A stretch of DNA of 64,000 nucleotides from Rheinheimera texasensis DSM 17496 (GTDB lineage Bacteria > Pseudomonadota > Gammaproteobacteria > Enterobacterales > Alteromonadaceae), in contig NZ_JONU01000007.1 in NCBI RefSeq assembly GCF_000711985.1, positions 1,054,001 to 1,118,000 on the forward strand, given 5' to 3'. The notes under the pieces are model-generated. The model made no database searches. It was not told the DNA's origin and worked only from the letters and a program-made list of their open reading frames with translations. Made by a program: the position numbers and the translations under genes. Below, piece by piece: positions 1,004-20,296 of this stretch (position 1 is the stretch's first letter; each line of letters starts with the position of its first letter).

Positions 1004-3397
1004 ATGTTTCGGCACATTTTGGCCCAATTAACTACACGACAAGATTTATCCGCTGAACAAATTCAGGCTGTGATCCAGGCGGTGGCTGACGATCAACTCT
1101 CAGACGCTCAGCTTGCCGGCTTTTTGCTGGCATTACTGAATAAAGGCGTCAGTGTTGCCGAAACCATCGCGATTGTGACGGCGATGCGCCGGCAAGCCAT
1201 CCGGATCAACCCCCGCGTGGCAGAACCCTTACTCGACACCTGCGGTACCGGCGGCGGGCTCAGCACTTTTAATATCTCCACCGCCAGCGCTTTTGTCTGC
1301 GCCGCAGCCGGTATTCCGGTCGCCAAACACGGCAGCCGCTCATTAAGCAGCCACTGCGGCAGCGCCGATGTGCTGGAAGCCCTTGGTGTCGCTATTGATT
1401 TACCGCCTGAAGCCGTCTGCCGGCAGATTGAACAGATTGGCCTTGGTTTTTTGCATGCACCGAACTTTCATCCGGTAATGCGGCGTTTGTTGCCGGTCGA
1501 AGCCTCGCTTGGCATCAAAACCATTTTTTATACCTTGATTGGCCCGCTGATTAATCCGGCCGGTGCAAGCCGGCATGTTTTGGGCGTTTATCGCGCTGAC
1601 TTGCTGGAATTAACCCGCGAAGTGCTGCCGGCACTTGAATATCAGGACGTGTTGCTGGTGCATGGCATCGACGGTATTGATGAAATCGCCTTAACCGGGC
1701 AGAGCCGGATTTATCAGTTCGCTCAGGGCCAGCTGCAACACTATCAAATCAGTCCTGAGCAATTTGGTTTAACTTGCTGCACGCTTGATGAGATCCGCTC
1801 CGATGTACCACTGGTCAGTGCCGAATTAATGCGCCAGCTGTTTGCCGGCAATATTAAAGGTGCCAGGCGCGATGCCGTGTTATTGAACAGCGCCGGCGCT
1901 TTAATGCTGTGTGGCCGGGCGGCGGATTTTACTGAAGGCATCAAGCTGGCCGCTAGCTTGCTGGACGAGGGCAAAGCACAGGCAAAGTTACAGCAACTGA
2001 TTGAAAGCTCGCAGGACTTTACCCGTGCGGTGCATCAGCACCGACCGGCTCCCGCAGCACCAGCCATCACACCGATGGAAGCGCCATCAGACCTCAATGC
2101 GGCATTTCAAGCGCTGCAACGCTCTGAGCAAAATAAACGCGCCCGCTTAAAAACCCTGATTGAAACCCTGCCCGACCTGATCTGGCTGACCGATTTGCAA
2201 GGCCATTTATTAAACTGTAATTCCCGTTTTGAACGCTTTGCCGGTTTACCGGAGCTACAACTGAAAGACCTGACATTGCCAGATTTTTTGCCCGCGGATT
2301 TGGCCAGTCAGCTGACCCAATCCGCACAAACCGCGCTGCAGCAACAGCGTGCAGTACTGACACAACAATGGATTTGTTATCAGGGCGACACCGAGCAACA
2401 ATTTGTTGATGTGATCCAGACACCTTTCGTGAACCAGGACGGCAGCATCGAAGGAGTCATGGCGATAGCACGCGATGTCACGGCGTTTAAGCGCACTGAG
2501 CAGGAGCTGCTGCGTCATCGCGACCAGCTGGAGTTTATGGTTGAGGCGCGGACTGCGCAGCTGACCGATGTGATAGCACAGCTTCGTCAGGCCCAGTTAC
2601 AACTGGTGGAAGCCGAGAAACTCAGTGCGCTTGGCGCTATTGTCGCCGGTTTGTCGCACGAGCTGAACACGCCACTTGGCAACATTCTGACGGTGGGCAG
2701 CGCACTCGACACTGAATTGCAGCGGCTACACAGCGAACTGGAACAAGGCCGTTTATCAAAAAGTGGCCTGCAGGATTTTATCAGCCACAATCGGGAGATG
2801 CTGGCTTTGCAACTAAAGGCAGCACACCGCTGCGCCAGTCTTATTAGCGATTTTAAACAATTATCAGCTGACAAAATTGCCGAACGGCGCGGCCATTTTG
2901 ATGCAAGCAAGCTGCTGAAAAATTGTGTTGCCGCCCAGCAAAGCGCGTTCGTAGCCGCCGATATTCAGCTGAGATTAGAATGTCCGGACTCAGTTATTTG
3001 TGACAGTTATCCAGAGACGCTGACGAAAATTATCGGTCATCTGCTGCAAAATGTGGTAATCCACGCCTTTCCTGCAGCTTTTCAGGACAACCGGCAACTG
3101 GAAATTACTGTTGAACGCAGTGGTGACCAACTATTACTGAGCTGTCGTGACAACGGTATTGGCCTGTCCCCTACATCACTGACGCGGGTATTTCATCCGT
3201 TTTTCACCCTGGATATGACGAAAGGTGCCGGCATTGGCCTGCCGCTGTGTAAACGGCTGGCGCTCAGTGTGTTAGGCGGTGATTTGGAAGTCAGCGCCAG
3301 CGCAGGCGCTGGCTGCTGTTTTGTGCTTACGATGCCACTGGTGGCGCCGGGTTATCGCAGTGTGCCGGCAGATTCAACACAAAGCACCGGGCTATAA
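1004..3397 (+). CDS. TrpD-like phosphoribosyltransferase domain fused to PAS-histidine kinase
   Basis: A 797-residue fusion. Residues 1 to about 340 cover a whole anthranilate phosphoribosyltransferase (TrpD) fold: glycine loop at 81-93, KHGSRS at 108-113, FHPVMRR around 155-161, GPLINPA, and the metal pair D226-E227. Next come a short coiled coil, a PAS domain (about 375-490), a coiled coil, a HisKA helix with HELNTP (phospho-acceptor His552) and an HATPase with N, G1 (DNGIG) and G2 (GAGIGLPL) boxes. There is no signal peptide or membrane segment, so it is cytoplasmic. Against Sulfolobus TrpD, N109 is Ser111, R164 is Glu166 and D83 is lost from the glycine loop, while H107 and H154 are kept (His109, His156). 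That argues for a ligand-sensing rather than tryptophan-making role (inference). No response regulator or trp gene is adjacent. GGAG precedes the ATG. Confidence 0.9.
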   Translation: MFRHILAQLTTRQDLSAEQIQAVIQAVADDQLSDAQLAGFLLALLNKGVSVAETIAIVTAMRRQAIRINPRVAEPLLDTCGTGGGLSTFNISTASAFVCAAAGIPVAKHGSRSLSSHCGSADVLEALGVAIDLPPEAVCRQIEQIGLGFLHAPNFHPVMRRLLPVEASLGIKTIFYTLIGPLINPAGASRHVLGVYRADLLELTREVLPALEYQDVLLVHGIDGIDEIALTGQSRIYQFAQGQLQHYQISPEQFGLTCCTLDEIRSDVPLVSAELMRQLFAGNIKGARRDAVLLNSAGALMLCGRAADFTEGIKLAASLLDEGKAQAKLQQLIESSQDFTRAVHQHRPAPAAPAITPMEAPSDLNAAFQALQRSEQNKRARLKTLIETLPDLIWLTDLQGHLLNCNSRFERFAGLPELQLKDLTLPDFLPADLASQLTQSAQTALQQQRAVLTQQWICYQGDTEQQFVDVIQTPFVNQDGSIEGVMAIARDVTAFKRTEQELLRHRDQLEFMVEARTAQLTDVIAQLRQAQLQLVEAEKLSALGAIVAGLSHELNTPLGNILTVGSALDTELQRLHSELEQGRLSKSGLQDFISHNREMLALQLKAAHRCASLISDFKQLSADKIAERRGHFDASKLLKNCVAAQQSAFVAADIQLRLECPDSVICDSYPETLTKIIGHLLQNVVIHAFPAAFQDNRQLEITVERSGDQLLLSCRDNGIGLSPTSLTRVFHPFFTLDMTKGAGIGLPLCKRLALSVLGGDLEVSASAGAGCCFVLTMPLVAPGYRSVPADSTQSTGL

Positions 3398-8759: not shown

Positions 8760-8988
8760 GCAAAAATCTCAGACAAAGCAATCAATTGCGCAGAAATCAG
8801 CCAGAACGCTGTGAAAGCAGGCAATTGCAACCGCCAACAATGGGCCAGCCCGGCGGCTCTGTGTAAAAAAGATGCAATAAAGGAACTACTTTGCTAGCAT
8901 GTCGCGCCTCTGCCAATGGCAGGTTGCAGACTTTGGCAACAAAGGCTACAACTTAGGTGCAGGATGTTGGATTACCAAGGATGTTTGC

Positions 8989-9375
8989 ATGAAAATGACC
9001 GACTTTTCCGTTTTGATCATCGATGATGTGCCCTCCGTCAGAGAATACTTACGCCAGACGCTGATGCTGCTCGGTATCACGCATGTCAGCGAAGCTTCTA
9101 ATGGCAGTCTTGGTATCAGCAGTTACACCAAACAGCACCAGGATGTCGTATTCCTCGATATTGAACTGCCGGACTGTGATGGCAAATCTTTGCTACGTCA
9201 GCTAAAAGAAATAAATCCCAACGCCAATGTGGTCATTATGACAGCACACAGCACCGTCGAGAATGTGCAGCAAAGCATTCTGGCCGGCGCCTGTGGTTTT
9301 ATTGCCAAGCCATTTTCCGCCAAGAAAATTGAGTCTGTGCTGATTAAGTGCCAGAAAAAAAGCCTGACGGCCTGA
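8989..9375 (+). CDS. Single-domain CheY-like response regulator
   Basis: A 128-residue stand-alone receiver domain. It has the acidic pair D12-D13, phospho-acceptor D57 in VVFLDIELPD, T85 in IMTAHS and K107 in AKPF, so it should be phosphorylated normally. There is no output domain, so it would act by protein contact, as CheY does. I used the ATG at 8989, with AAGGA eight bases upstream; an earlier in-frame ATG at 8899 lacks a ribosome-binding site. No kinase gene is adjacent, so its partner is unknown. An extended -10 element TGCTAGCAT is visible at 8892-8900. Confidence 0.9.
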   Translation: MKMTDFSVLIIDDVPSVREYLRQTLMLLGITHVSEASNGSLGISSYTKQHQDVVFLDIELPDCDGKSLLRQLKEINPNANVVIMTAHSTVENVQQSILAGACGFIAKPFSAKKIESVLIKCQKKSLTA

Positions 9376-14687: not shown

Positions 14688-15680
14688 GTGCCATTCGCTA
14701 TGCAGCAATATTGGTCTGCCCTGCAGCAAACGCCGGTGTTTGAACCCGGCCTGTTGTTATTACTGACTCTTTTGCTGGCGCGTTACGCCGCGCTGCCGCT
14801 GCAATATCAGCCCTGGCCCTTATTGCGGCTGCTCGCAGAACGTGTCGCCGCTAAAGTGAACAAGCCGTCGGACAGCCCGGCGCAGCAGCGCCTGGCCGGC
14901 ATGTTGGCGCTGCTGGTTGTGATTTTGCCGCTGCTGACGCTGGCCTGGACCTTCCGGCACTTATCTGAATGGCCTGCCGGTTTTGACGCTTTGCTGCTGT
15001 ACCTTTGTTTAGACCACCGTTATTTCAGTAGTCAGGTCGCCACTGTGGCCGGCAGTCTGCAACGCCAGCAGCTGCAGCTGGCCAAAGACCAGCTCCAACC
15101 GCTGCTGCGACGTGATTGCGGTCAGCTCTCTGCAACCGGATTAGCCAAGGCCGGCATCGAAGTGTTGGCGCAGCGTCAGCTGCGACATTTTGCCGCGGTC
15201 CTGTTCTGGTTTCTTGTCGGCGGCGCAATAGCTGCGCTGCTCTGGCGGTTAATGGTTGAATTACAGCAGGCCTGGTCTGGTAAAATCAGTCAGCAGCGTG
15301 TGTTTGGCAGTGCAGTCGGCAAGGTTGGCCGACTGATGTTGTGGCCGGTTTGCTGGTTACAGGGGGCGCTGGTTGCACTATTGTTCCGGTTTGCGCCAAG
15401 TGTGCGGTATTTTCGCGCCAGTCAGCAGGCTGGTTTGCCGGCGGCAGAGCGCTGGTATTTATCGGCCTGGAGTGCTGGGCTACAGCGCAATCTGGCCGGG
15501 CCCATGATGTATCAGGGCGTGAAAATCCGTCGCGACCGGATTGGGCCCGAACAGGCGCCGGCACTGGCCGATTTGTTGCTAGCGCAAGTGATGGAACAGC
15601 AAATTCTGCGGGCACAATGGTTGTTGTGTTGCAGTAGTGTTGCTTTGATTTTACTCTATCAATGGCCACATTCACTCTGA
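14688..15680 (+). CDS. CobD/CbiB-family membrane protein
   Basis: A 330-residue integral membrane protein resembling adenosylcobinamide-phosphate synthase (CobD/CbiB), which attaches aminopropanol in cobalamin assembly. Visible signs are LLLARYAALPLQYQPWPLLRLL, LLLYLCLDHRYFSSQV, FWFLVGGAIAALLWRLM, and four or five hydrophobic helices. No other cobalamin gene is in the window, so the function is uncertain; AmpE-like proteins of related fold are the alternative. The start is GTG at 14688 or ATG at 14700. The end overlaps the next gene's longest frame by 19 bases. Confidence 0.7.
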   Translation: MPFAMQQYWSALQQTPVFEPGLLLLLTLLLARYAALPLQYQPWPLLRLLAERVAAKVNKPSDSPAQQRLAGMLALLVVILPLLTLAWTFRHLSEWPAGFDALLLYLCLDHRYFSSQVATVAGSLQRQQLQLAKDQLQPLLRRDCGQLSATGLAKAGIEVLAQRQLRHFAAVLFWFLVGGAIAALLWRLMVELQQAWSGKISQQRVFGSAVGKVGRLMLWPVCWLQGALVALLFRFAPSVRYFRASQQAGLPAAERWYLSAWSAGLQRNLAGPMMYQGVKIRRDRIGPEQAPALADLLLAQVMEQQILRAQWLLCCSSVALILLYQWPHSL

Positions 15681-18600
15681 TGATACAGGCTGGACTTTTC
15701 AGCAGATTCTGCGTTATGTTCGCCGCCACAGGTCAACAACAGGGCAATCTATTGGCTACAAATATCGCTGGGTTTCGCCACAAATTAAGCCAGTTCCTGC
15801 GTTGTTGCCTCTGCAGTCTGTTGTTGCTTCCGGCTGTTTTTGCTAACGAACTGCAAAATCCACCACCGTTATTACAGCCATTGACCACCGCTCAGGGCCT
15901 CAGCAGTGGTGTCGTGAATAAAGTCATGATCGACCATAGTGGTTTTTTATGGCTGGCGACTGACCGTGGCCTGAATCGTTTTGACGCCAACCAGATCAGG
16001 CAGTTGCCACTGGTCGATGACAGTCAGGTTGAGCTCAATGTATCGGCGCTGTTGGAAGACAGCCAGCGCCGGCTGTTTATCGCAGCGCAGCAACAAGGGC
16101 TGTATCTGCTTGACCGCAACACTGCCGCCGCCGAGTTGTTAACCCCACTGCAACAACTGGAAAGCGATACCATTCCGTTGCTACACGATGTGATTGAGCA
16201 ACAACCGGATTTATTGCTACTGGCCATTAATAAAGCGGTTTATCAGTTGCAGTTACCAGGCCGTCAACTGAAGCAAATCTTTGAGTTTGATGGTGGCAAC
16301 AGCCTGATGTCCCGGGTGCGGATCTTAAAGAAACTCAATCAGTTGCTGCTGATTGGCACCTCGCGTGGCTTGTTTATTTACGACCTGAAAACTCAACAGC
16401 ACTGGCCGCTACAACTGGCTAATAGCGGACAAGGCCGCTTTGACAATCTGGTCAGAACCCTTGAAATCATCGACAACCAACTGTATTTGTCGCTCGGTTC
16501 CGGCTTGTACCGGCTGAACGAAGCCGAGCTGCGCCTCGCAGCGACACAACAGCTGACGATGACCCCGATGCTGCAGGAGCTGCAGATCAGTAAAATCCTG
16601 CCACGCCCACAAGGCTTGCTGTTGGGCACCAATAAAGGTCTGTTCCAGCTCGATCATGGCCAGCAGCAACCGCGATTGTTATGGCGCTTCACTGATAGCC
16701 AATACGAAGTGGATCAGGACAGCATTACCGATCTGGCGGCGACACCGGACGGTGGCTTTTGGGTGACGAGCCGCCTGCAAGGTGCGTATTACTGGCATCC
16801 GCGCAGCACCCACTTTCAACACCTGAAATTACCAATGCCAGCTGCATCAGGTCAGATACTACAGGCCGGTTATAGCCCCAGAGCTGTGCTGGCGCTGGCT
16901 GAAAGTCCGGCCAATCAGTTGCTGCTCAGTACTCTCAACGGCTTAAAACGCTTTGATCTCAACTCAGGCAACCTGACCGATATTCCCTATCCCCCAACTT
17001 TACCGGCCAACTTCTCAACCGTTGTGGCGCGAATTTATCCGGACCATGCGGAAAAACTCTGGCTGCGTAACGGCAATGCCTTACATCTGTTTTCTACCCA
17101 GACTCAGCAATTCCTGCCACTGCCGTTGCAGGACGAGACGCAGCAATCGCTGATCCAACTGAACGCGCGTGGTCACTGGCGCGATGACGATGGCGTCTTT
17201 TGGTTTTACAACGCAGAAGATTATTACCGCTACCAGCCGGCAGACGGCTCACTGCAGGCGATGCCGGAACTCCGCCAGGCCGAACCGACCCACCGAGCAG
17301 GCCGCTTTCTAGGGCCACATCCGCAGCACAAAGAGTGGATGTTTTTCAGCGCAGCTGACCGGCTCTGGCTGTACGACCAACAAAAACGCCAGGTGCGGAA
17401 AATCTATGAGGCGATGCCATATCAGCCCGGCCTCGCCCGCACCGCAGACAAAATGTGTGTTGATGGCCATGGCAACCTTTGGTTTACCGTGCGCGGTCTT
17501 GGACTGCTGAGTTTTGATGGCGCCAGCCTGCAACTGAAACATCATCTGCATAAACAAAATGGCCTGCAAAATAATGCAATTTACTCCTGTGAGGCCGACA
17601 GCGACGGACACTTGTGGTTTGCCAGCCAACAGGGTCTGACCCGGTTGGATCCGGACACATTGCGGCTGGAACCTTTTGACAAAGGCGACGGTTTGTCCGG
17701 CAGCGATTTCAGTTATGCCGCCAGTCTGAAGCTATCCAATGGTGTGCTGGCCTATGGCACGAATTCAGGCCTGACCTGGTTTAATCCTGCCGAACTGGCC
17801 GAGACGGCACAGGCACCGAATATCGCTATTACCGGCATCGGCGCGATGAATCAGGCCACTTCCACGACACTGGACAATCTCGACGGCCAGTCTTTCCGCT
17901 TTGCCTACGACAGTCTGGGCATTGAGGTCAGTTTCTCGGCACTGAATTTTCGCGACAGCGATAAAATTCAGTACAAATTCTGGCTGGAAGGCCATCGCGA
18001 GATCCGTTTCCCGCAACAAAATAACGCCAGCGTGACTTTCCCGCAGCTTGACCCCGGCCAATACACTTTTCACGTCAAAGCGCTGACGCCGCACAATGGC
18101 AAAGAAAGCCAAACCGCCACTTTAACACTTCGCATCGAACCAGCCCCCTGGTATTCGACCACTGCGTTAGTCAGTTATGCCGTGCTGGGCCTTATTTTGC
18201 TGTTTATCTGGCAACACAACCGGCTGGCACAAAAACGCTTGTTGGCGCAGGCGCACTATAAAGTGCGCGCCAGCGAACAACGCTTAAAACAGGCACTGGA
18301 GGCGGTGAACAGCGGGGTCTGGGATTATCTGGTGCAGAAAAACAGCATGTACGCACAGCGTGTGCATGCCATGCTGGGCTATAGCGAAGAACTGAATCCG
18401 CTGTCGATGCAACAACATCTGGCATTGATCCACCCGGATGATCGAGACAGTTATCAGCAAACCTGGCAACGTTTTATTGCCGCGCCGGAGCGCAGCTTTG
18501 ATTTCACCTTCCGCATGCAGCATAAAGATGGCAGCTGGCTGTGGTTTCGCGATATTGGCAAAGTGACAGAAACCCAGGGCGATAAGGCGCTGCGTGTCAT

Positions 18601-20296
18601 CGGCACCTACAGCAATATCACTGAAACCCGCGCCACCAAAGAAAAAGCCCGCTTGTTTGGCGAAGCTTTCCAGCAAACCCGGGACTGGGTGGTGTTGCTG
18701 GACCCGGAACAACGGGTGCTGGCCGCCAATCAGTCGTTTGCTGACGTGTTTGGCAATATGGATGACTATCTATCCAATCCACGTGTGCATGAACTCGGCA
18801 TCAGTTTGTCGCGCCGGCGTTTTTATACGCGTTTATTAAGCGGCATGACAGCTAACCAGCACTGGCAGGGCGAAGAAATAGTATTGAGCCCGGATGGTAC
18901 TGAGCGCCCTACTTTGCTCAACATCAGCGCAGTCGGCGACGAAAACGGCGTCGATTTTTATGTCTTGGTATTTACCGATATCACGGCGCAAAAACAGGCC
19001 GAAGATGATTTGCGTTACCTCGCCAATTATGACGCTTTAACCGGTCTGCCTAACCGCGCTTTACTGATGGACCGCATTCTGCACGGCATTGAAACAGCAA
19101 AACGTGAGAAACGTTCGCTCGCGCTGTGTTTTATCGATTTGGATCGCTTTAAACAAATTAACGACAGTCTCGGCCACGATATCGGCGATATGCTGCTGAA
19201 ACAAGTCGCCAAACGTCTGACGTCGATTTTACGGCTGACCGATACTGTCGCCCGCCTTGGTGGTGACGAATTTGTTGTTTTGCTGGAAAGCTATAAAAAT
19301 GACGACAATATCAGCCATGTCGCACGTAAAATGCTGAAATCCATCGCCGAACCCATGTCGCTGGGCGGCCATTCCGTCAGCGTTTCGCCCAGCATCGGCA
19401 TTGCGGTGTATCCGGAAGACGCCGCTGATGCCACCGAATTACTCAAACATGCCGATGTGGCGATGTATCACGCCAAAGATTTAGGCCGTAACAACTTCCA
19501 GTTTTTTATTCAGGAAATGAATGACAAAGCCCAGATGCAATTAGCTCGGGAAACGCGGCTCAGAAGCGCCTGGCAACACAATGAATTCCTAAACTATTAC
19601 CAGCCGATTTATGACAGCCTGCAGCAAAAAATTGTTGGTGTGGAAGTGCTGATGCGCTGGCAGGATGCCGACCGGCTGGTACCGCCGAACGATTTTATCC
19701 CGCTGGCGGAAGATCTGCGGCTGATAGTCCCTATGACACAAGCCCTGTTGGTGCGGGCGCTGGCTGATTTGCAGCAATGGCATCAGGCCGGTTATCCGCT
19801 TTACGTTTCAGTAAACCTGTCGCCGCGTCATCTGGAGCAACAAAATCTGGCGCTGGAGACCTCAGCCTTGCTGGCACAGTACCAGTTGCCACCGAGCTGT
19901 CTGCGGTTCGAAGTGACCGAAAGTGCGCTGATGCAGGACCATCACAGTGCCATTGCCACTATGCTGGCACTGAGTGAACTCGGCGTGCAGCTGGCGCTGG
20001 ATGATTTTGGCACTGGTTACTCTTCACTGAAGTACTTAAAAGAGCTGCCGATTGACGGGATCAAAATCGACCGGAGTTTTGTCAAAGACATTGGCATCGA
20101 CCGCAACGATGAAACCATCATCGACGCGATGCTCAGTATGGCCAGCAGTCTTGGCATGTATTGCATCGCGGAGGGTGTTGAAACCGAACAACAGCTGGCG
20201 TTTTTCAGTCAGCGCGGCTGTCATCTGATCCAGGGTTACCTGTTTGGCAAACCGATGGCCGCAGCGCAATTGCTGCAAAGCCTGCAACAGCATTAA
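15662..20296 (+). CDS. Periplasmic propeller sensor with PAS-PAS-GGDEF-EAL (c-di-GMP enzyme)
   Basis: A 1544-residue receptor for cyclic di-GMP turnover. A signal segment ends at about 62 (LLLLPAVFA). A large beta-propeller of two-component-regulator repeats follows (about 65-700; LTTAQGLSSGVVNKVMIDHSG, WLATDRGLNRFD), then a Y_Y_Y domain (about 720-800) and a membrane helix (about 832-852). The cytoplasmic part has two PAS domains, a GGDEF domain with intact GGDEF (1200-1204) and the RLTD inhibitory site five residues before it, and an EAL domain with EVL in place of EAL near 1327 and DDFGTGYSSLKYL near 1447. Both activities look possible. The true start may be an internal ATG (about 15716), since the frame overlaps the previous gene. 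Confidence 0.93.
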   Translation: MATFTLMIQAGLFSRFCVMFAATGQQQGNLLATNIAGFRHKLSQFLRCCLCSLLLLPAVFANELQNPPPLLQPLTTAQGLSSGVVNKVMIDHSGFLWLATDRGLNRFDANQIRQLPLVDDSQVELNVSALLEDSQRRLFIAAQQQGLYLLDRNTAAAELLTPLQQLESDTIPLLHDVIEQQPDLLLLAINKAVYQLQLPGRQLKQIFEFDGGNSLMSRVRILKKLNQLLLIGTSRGLFIYDLKTQQHWPLQLANSGQGRFDNLVRTLEIIDNQLYLSLGSGLYRLNEAELRLAATQQLTMTPMLQELQISKILPRPQGLLLGTNKGLFQLDHGQQQPRLLWRFTDSQYEVDQDSITDLAATPDGGFWVTSRLQGAYYWHPRSTHFQHLKLPMPAASGQILQAGYSPRAVLALAESPANQLLLSTLNGLKRFDLNSGNLTDIPYPPTLPANFSTVVARIYPDHAEKLWLRNGNALHLFSTQTQQFLPLPLQDETQQSLIQLNARGHWRDDDGVFWFYNAEDYYRYQPADGSLQAMPELRQAEPTHRAGRFLGPHPQHKEWMFFSAADRLWLYDQQKRQVRKIYEAMPYQPGLARTADKMCVDGHGNLWFTVRGLGLLSFDGASLQLKHHLHKQNGLQNNAIYSCEADSDGHLWFASQQGLTRLDPDTLRLEPFDKGDGLSGSDFSYAASLKLSNGVLAYGTNSGLTWFNPAELAETAQAPNIAITGIGAMNQATSTTLDNLDGQSFRFAYDSLGIEVSFSALNFRDSDKIQYKFWLEGHREIRFPQQNNASVTFPQLDPGQYTFHVKALTPHNGKESQTATLTLRIEPAPWYSTTALVSYAVLGLILLFIWQHNRLAQKRLLAQAHYKVRASEQRLKQALEAVNSGVWDYLVQKNSMYAQRVHAMLGYSEELNPLSMQQHLALIHPDDRDSYQQTWQRFIAAPERSFDFTFRMQHKDGSWLWFRDIGKVTETQGDKALRVIGTYSNITETRATKEKARLFGEAFQQTRDWVVLLDPEQRVLAANQSFADVFGNMDDYLSNPRVHELGISLSRRRFYTRLLSGMTANQHWQGEEIVLSPDGTERPTLLNISAVGDENGVDFYVLVFTDITAQKQAEDDLRYLANYDALTGLPNRALLMDRILHGIETAKREKRSLALCFIDLDRFKQINDSLGHDIGDMLLKQVAKRLTSILRLTDTVARLGGDEFVVLLESYKNDDNISHVARKMLKSIAEPMSLGGHSVSVSPSIGIAVYPEDAADATELLKHADVAMYHAKDLGRNNFQFFIQEMNDKAQMQLARETRLRSAWQHNEFLNYYQPIYDSLQQKIVGVEVLMRWQDADRLVPPNDFIPLAEDLRLIVPMTQALLVRALADLQQWHQAGYPLYVSVNLSPRHLEQQNLALETSALLAQYQLPPSCLRFEVTESALMQDHHSAIATMLALSELGVQLALDDFGTGYSSLKYLKELPIDGIKIDRSFVKDIGIDRNDETIIDAMLSMASSLGMYCIAEGVETEQQLAFFSQRGCHLIQGYLFGKPMAAAQLLQSLQQH

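Follow-up and report, generated by a model that had tools for sequence, protein, structure and literature searches.

The 64,000-nucleotide stretch of Rheinheimera texasensis DNA analyzed here (hereafter the window) carries on its forward strand, at positions 1004-3397, a gene whose product joins a TrpD-like domain to PAS, HisKA, and HATPase domains. In our judgement there is about an even chance that this protein is a soluble, cytoplasmic PAS histidine kinase with a ligand-responsive N-terminal input module drawn from a divergent lineage of TrpD proteins (here termed TrpD'), in which the acceptor pocket had already changed. The fusion architecture itself is real, rare, and apparently undescribed.

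The gene is a single unbroken frame running from ATG to TAA (stop codon checked) and encoding 797 amino acids, and Pfam confirmed the preliminary description of it as a full TrpD fold followed by PAS, HisKA, and HATPase domains. The TrpD-like domain (residues 1-335, positions 1004-2008) comprises a helical bundle, matched by Glycos_trans_3N at residues 4-65 (E 3.2e-15), and a phosphoribosyltransferase a/b domain, matched by Glycos_transf_3 at residues 75-325 (E 1.6e-76); the NCBIfam trpD model TIGR01245 scores 353 bits on the fusion against a cut-off of 199.05. The PAS domain occupies residues 381-492 (positions 2144-2479, E 7.3e-12). The HisKA dimerisation and phosphoacceptor region (residues 543-621, positions 2630-2866) scores 26.0 bits (E 9.8e-6), slightly below the cut-off of 26.9, while its homologue in genome G150 reaches 29.7 bits; it includes the phosphoacceptor H box, HELNTP, with His552. 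The HATPase_c domain (residues 671-779, positions 3014-3340, E 6.4e-18, 65.6 bits against a cut-off of 26.4) contains LLQNVV at 680, DNGIGL at 716, and GAGIGL at 741, which we take to be the N, G1, and G2 boxes, respectively. The profile for thymidine phosphorylase (DeoA, PRK05820) gave 60 bits on the fusion, far under its cut-off of 269. In a Kyte-Doolittle hydropathy analysis, only two 19-residue segments of the fusion (40 and 763) reached 1.6, both within the TrpD or HATPase fold, and none did so in the G150 protein. Comparison of the PAS domain with solved structures returned weak matches and no hint of a ligand. Two structure prediction models, each based on three alignment rows only, had mean pLDDT values of 40.5 and 35.6 and were unusable.

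The preliminary description had itself raised the possibility that this gene is the genomic trpD, or an artefact joining two frames, and neither is the case. The R. texasensis genome has three PF00591 genes, including the fusion and a separate trpD within the run trpE, trpG, trpD, trpCF, trpB, trpA (genes named by eye), and G150 has a second TrpD match besides its fusion. A search for the same fusion across genomes located it in three of 22 genomes of the genus, namely R. texasensis, G150, and G154. The G150 gene is intact and encodes 901 amino acids with the identical domain order and one extra PAS domain; this matching architecture excludes an artefact. The copy in G154, a Rheinheimera MAG (L004:7989-10185; G154 and L004, SSFI01000027.1, were taken as one record), is broken: one deletion disrupts its frame, and two further deletions and an insertion are in frame. 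Given so many sites, an assembly error is unlikely to account for these breaks.

Beyond the genus, the TrpD-domain profile was used to search overlapping genome samples, all of them thresholded. Four of 395 genomes of the family matched at E 1e-75, namely the three with the fusion and one with a 344-aa frame; among 394 genomes of the order, R. texasensis was the only match at 1e-88. Eight of 369 genomes of the class matched at 1e-88, with a frame longer than 600 aa in R. texasensis only, and 171 of 398 genomes of the phylum at 1e-75, where the matches listed included one other frame of this length (G745), which proved to be an ordinary TrpD. Fusions with a TrpD part of the canonical type would be detectable only by frame length, at genus-level sampling and in one other listing. 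Long TrpD frames in the family relatives G082 and G044 (L060:3602-6034 and L061:3026-5467, encoding 810 and 813 aa) are, by eye, TrpD-TrpCF proteins and not kinase fusions, and that in G019 consists of separate genes within one open frame. At least five frames of 520-557 aa from the phylum search have lengths that suit TrpG-TrpD. None of 2146 matching plasmid records covered 80% of the protein at one place, and a defence library gave no match to the fusion.

To describe the pocket, 78 aligned TrpD hits were reduced to 68 by dropping identical rows and those shorter than 250 aa. Four of these are of the fusion type, one of them duplicating the sequence from the window; the 64 other TrpDs are redundant, with 41 remaining at less than 80% identity. 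Forty-two columns hold the same residue in 63 or all 64 of the other TrpDs. Both intact fusions retain 34 of these columns, among them GTGG with the N and S after it, KHG, SS, GPL-NP, and the metal-binding DE pair (D226-E227, positions 1679-1684). The Asp of the GTGGD loop (D83), which is Asp in 63 of the other TrpDs and Ala in one, is deleted in both intact fusions, leaving GTGGG at residues 81-85 of the window protein (positions 1244-1258). Arg164, present in all 64, is replaced by Glu in both (E166, positions 1499-1501, within PVEASL beginning at 1493). Asn109 (61 of 64, Gly in the other three) is Ser in all fusions (S111, within KHGSR at residues 108-112, positions 1325-1339). The Asn that follows F175 in all 64 has given way to Tyr-Thr (Y176-T177) with a one-residue insertion in both intact fusions (IFYTL, residues 174-178, positions 1523-1537). 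The replacement of Arg164, the loss of D83, the Ser at Asn109, and the insertion are each absent from all 64 other TrpDs. In addition, both intact fusions have Lys for R172 (K172; Arg in 63 of 64) and changes at two otherwise invariant columns of the helical bundle (residues 30 and 49), whereas changes at the His154 site and at an Ala (205) are each confined to one fusion. The decayed G154 copy has Gly at the Glu166 site.

These alignments bear out the residue mapping of the preliminary description for the window protein, which has S111 for N109 and E166 for R164, lacks D83, and keeps K108, H109, H156, and D226-E227; the Y176-T177 insertion and K172 are additions to that mapping. Its statement that His154 is kept holds for the window protein (H156) and fails for the G150 fusion, which has Asn at this site. 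Likewise, the anthranilate site is altered as proposed, with most PRPP-site residues staying in place, but the phosphate-binding frame had been called untouched, and since D83 belongs to the phosphate-binding GTGGD loop, that frame is not wholly so.

Published work gives weight to some of these exchanges over others. In the Mycobacterium enzyme, R193 and N138 hold the carboxylate of anthranilate (PMC9835598), and this Arg is R164 in SsTrpD and R193 in MtuAnPRT (PMC9835598, PMC10520873). Replacing R164 by Ala raised the Km for anthranilate 700-fold and lowered kcat 7-fold, and Ala at His154 or His107 changed little. Several plant enzymes naturally have Ser at the Asn site, and N215S raised Km 1.2-fold and lowered kcat by 34% (PMC10520873). 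GTGGD is considered the TrpD signature motif (PMC5537072). Because the published effect of R164A is large and Ser at the Asn site is cheap, the Arg to Glu exchange is, by analogy with these mutants, the weightiest change in the pocket, and N109S alone means little. Because Glu is acidic, its presence at this site suggests that the acceptor bears an amine or amide instead of a carboxylate.

The same features occur outside the fusions. In the class search, a gene of genome G891 scored 358 bits, the other rows listed in the class and phylum searches (R. texasensis apart) reaching at most 306 bits; ten such rows that were compared (L069-L075, L113-L115) lack the TrpD' signature. The G891 gene (L112) is a free-standing frame of 382 aa that has GTGG-G and KHGS, a Glu in place of Arg164, and FFT with the insertion. 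Trees of 44 rows were calculated, leaving out 28 near-identical family rows and adding four further TrpDs and the second TrpD of G891. The fusions and the G891 protein form one clade with support of 100/99, and the signature is common to its three intact members and absent from all 40 other TrpDs. The clade stays at SH-aLRT 95 in a quick tree from which the signature regions were cut out, in which the G891 protein lies by path slightly nearer to a Peptoclostridium TrpD (1.96) than to a fusion (2.02); with these regions removed, it is most identical (42%) to the ordinary TrpD of G891 itself. The TrpDs of the bacterial family to which the fusions belong form a clade that leaves out the fusion domains, and an origin from the family's own trpD was therefore rejected.

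Since a free-standing TrpD' that groups with the fusions has the same signature, the pocket probably changed before the domain was fused to the kinase, perhaps for another acceptor. The preliminary description had assumed the reverse, namely that an ordinary TrpD lost anthranilate binding after the fusion, upon becoming a sensor. An altered pocket beside intact kinase motifs would fit that order, and a fusion stripped of its kinase could have given rise to the G891 gene. This account is weakened, however, by the occurrence of all four changes in the free-standing relative, which lies in a trp-like cluster and in one clade with the fusions, and by the position of the fusion domains away from the TrpDs of their own family; we regard it as unlikely.

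The G891 gene lies in a second, divergent trp-like cluster (L116:9015-13588, contig C146), with TrpD', TrpC', and TrpF' on the forward strand and TrpB' and TrpA' on the reverse strand. G891 also has an ordinary TrpD on another contig, with a TrpC match beside it. In TrpC', the Lys, Glu, Asn, and Ser that we take to be catalytic are all retained. The trpB model accepts TrpB' by a narrow margin (397.1 bits against 392.45). By our assignment of positions, TrpB' has His for the PLP lysine and Ala for the active-site Glu, and thus looks like a pseudo-subunit. The eudicot TSB-like pseudoenzyme, which activates TrpA (PMC12727527), likewise has Ala at what we take to be the corresponding Glu; the putative pseudo-subunit of G891 differs in having His at the presumed PLP-lysine position as well. 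About 2 kb before the cluster there is a gene of the MbnB/TglH/ChrH family (RiPP modification; L116:6224-7072). Since the G891 genome, source of the sole free-standing TrpD' encountered, has 6% contamination, the host of the cluster is uncertain, while the existence of the cluster is not. No further TrpD' was found in 78 genomes of the class of G448 at E 1e-105, a search that had no positive control; for the order of G891, the search covered G891 itself.

This setting brings in a second account, in which the fusion is a working enzyme tethered to a kinase, with TrpD' transferring phosphoribosyl to another acceptor and the kinase reporting turnover or being merely linked. A catalytic frame that is mostly kept, the DE pair included, would suit an enzyme, as would the place of the free-standing TrpD' beside TrpC'- and TrpF'-like genes. 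On the other hand, the GTGGD Asp is gone, and a TrpC' search at E 0.001 gave just a single match in each of R. texasensis, G150, and G154, located beside the ordinary TrpD match, so that these genomes have no TrpC' to act downstream. We consider the tethered enzyme improbable, if still deserving of attention. A wider proposal, which is possible and which we put forward tentatively, is that TrpD' transfers phosphoribosyl to an acceptor not yet described. In G891 it would belong to a parallel trp-like pathway, with the TrpB pseudo-subunit letting TrpA' release an indole-like product, and in the Rheinheimera group it would be wired to a kinase that reads the acceptor or the phosphoribosyl adduct.

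Conservation was compared between the two intact fusions and between R. texasensis and the broken copy. The intact proteins are 63% identical in TrpD' and 61% in the PAS domain (residues 373-500 against the matching G150 stretch), versus 47% in HisKA and 44% in HATPase. Residues 76-113, which include both active-site loops, are letter-identical between the two TrpD' domains. Histidine kinases are dimers. TrpD enzymes are homodimers too, and their active site lies at the hinge that joins the two domains (PMC9835598); TrpD' might accordingly be a ligand-free dimerisation scaffold that leaves the PAS domain, itself well conserved, as the sole sensor. A scaffold would have no need of letter-identical loops in domains of 63% overall identity; these loops, together with the better conservation of TrpD' and PAS, favour a ligand, and the scaffold appears quite doubtful to us.

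Relative to the broken copy, dN/dS is 0.13 for the TrpD part, 0.07 for the PAS domain with its adjoining coil, and 0.17 for HATPase, compared with 0.011 for pdxH, 0.022 for argS, and 0.12 for the neighbouring GNAT gene. Judged by these ratios, the fusion gene is constrained, less than the housekeeping genes pdxH and argS and to a degree similar to the GNAT gene. That it is a dispensable gene on its way out, without a present function, would agree with its presence in only three of the 22 genus genomes and with its breakage in G154, but the gene is intact in two diverged genomes and its dN/dS lies well below one, which makes this very unlikely.

The fusion gene stands alone between the GNAT gene and pdxH (both named by eye), which are on the opposite strand. 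Of the 20 genomes in which pdxH was located, every one has it next to argS, and two have the fusion beside it (1.5-kb flanks); the G150 fusion is on a contig other than that of pdxH. Genes for an ABC exporter, an HlyD-like protein, and a TetR-like protein (by eye; L064:1168-5093) lie upstream of the R. texasensis GNAT gene and are missing there in L004. Base composition gives no sign of recent foreign DNA in the window, with a G+C content of 53.8% for both gene and window, and the G150 fusion has 53.6% against 51.1% for its 16-kb locus. A promoter scan at the fusion found no sigma-70-like sites (1.9 expected), and eight terminator-like sites were counted where 4.1 (sd 2.1) were expected, at least seven of them within the coding frame. 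The nearest response regulator gene (8899-9375, forward strand; single-domain by eye) is found at 87% identity or more in ten of the 22 genus genomes, seven of which have no fusion, and it is therefore not a dedicated partner. Other signalling genes were noted. The strongest other match to the kinase half within the R. texasensis genome (36%; L104:2-3370) is a large protein that by eye resembles propeller sensors, and the window also encodes, at 15662-20296 on the forward strand, a 1544-aa protein with propeller, PAS, GGDEF, and EAL regions by eye.

Our preferred reading, that a TrpD' of alternative specificity was recruited as the input module of a PAS kinase, would imply the following course of events. 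TrpD' would retain the binding of PRPP or a phosphoribosyl compound, alongside some acceptor that is not anthranilate, or would bind the product of the two, and the ligand would close the hinge of the dimeric module. This movement would pass through the linker, the PAS domain, and a helical coil to switch autophosphorylation of His552, from which the phosphate would go to a response regulator encoded elsewhere.

Several known systems resemble parts of the fusion. With TrpD (EC 2.4.2.18, TIGR01245) it has in common both domains, the majority of the PRPP-site residues, and the metal-binding DE. It differs in the deleted GTGGD Asp, the exchanges of Arg164 to Glu and Asn109 to Ser, the insertion, a location outside the trp operon, and the attached kinase. 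Soluble PAS-HisKA-HATPase kinases (among the best solved matches are ZraS, 9jfj, and the FixL-kinase constructs 8a3u and 4gcz) have the same PAS domain, HELNTP motif, and N, G1, and G2 boxes, but not the enzyme-derived N-terminal input domain. TrpD is also joined to a second protein in TrpD-TrpCF fusions; these, like TrpG-TrpD, unite steps of the tryptophan pathway, and the former have no signalling domain. The DNA-binding TrpD2/YbiB proteins have a TrpD-like fold with another job, and a neighbourhood study of the family assigned TrpD, DeoA, and YbiB-like functions (PMC5445326). The YbiB profile, however, remains far under its cut-off on the G150 TrpD domain (45.9 bits against 185), and for the window protein YbiB is absent from the best 25 of 84 families. 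The earlier remark that no kinase with such a sensor is described agrees with the literature matches listed, none of which describes a kinase with a TrpD domain, most subscription papers lying outside that search.

From the TrpD' clade comes a signature made up of GTGG-G, KHGS, FxT, and a Glu where TrpD has its Arg; the clade also points to a second trp-like gene cluster, that of G891. Because the trpD model accepts TrpD' proteins well over its cut-off despite their changed acceptor site, they are probably mislabelled in databases. If the preferred reading is true, a class IV phosphoribosyltransferase fold would serve as the input of a histidine kinase, which raises the question of whether two-component systems let bacteria sense phosphoribosyl metabolites.
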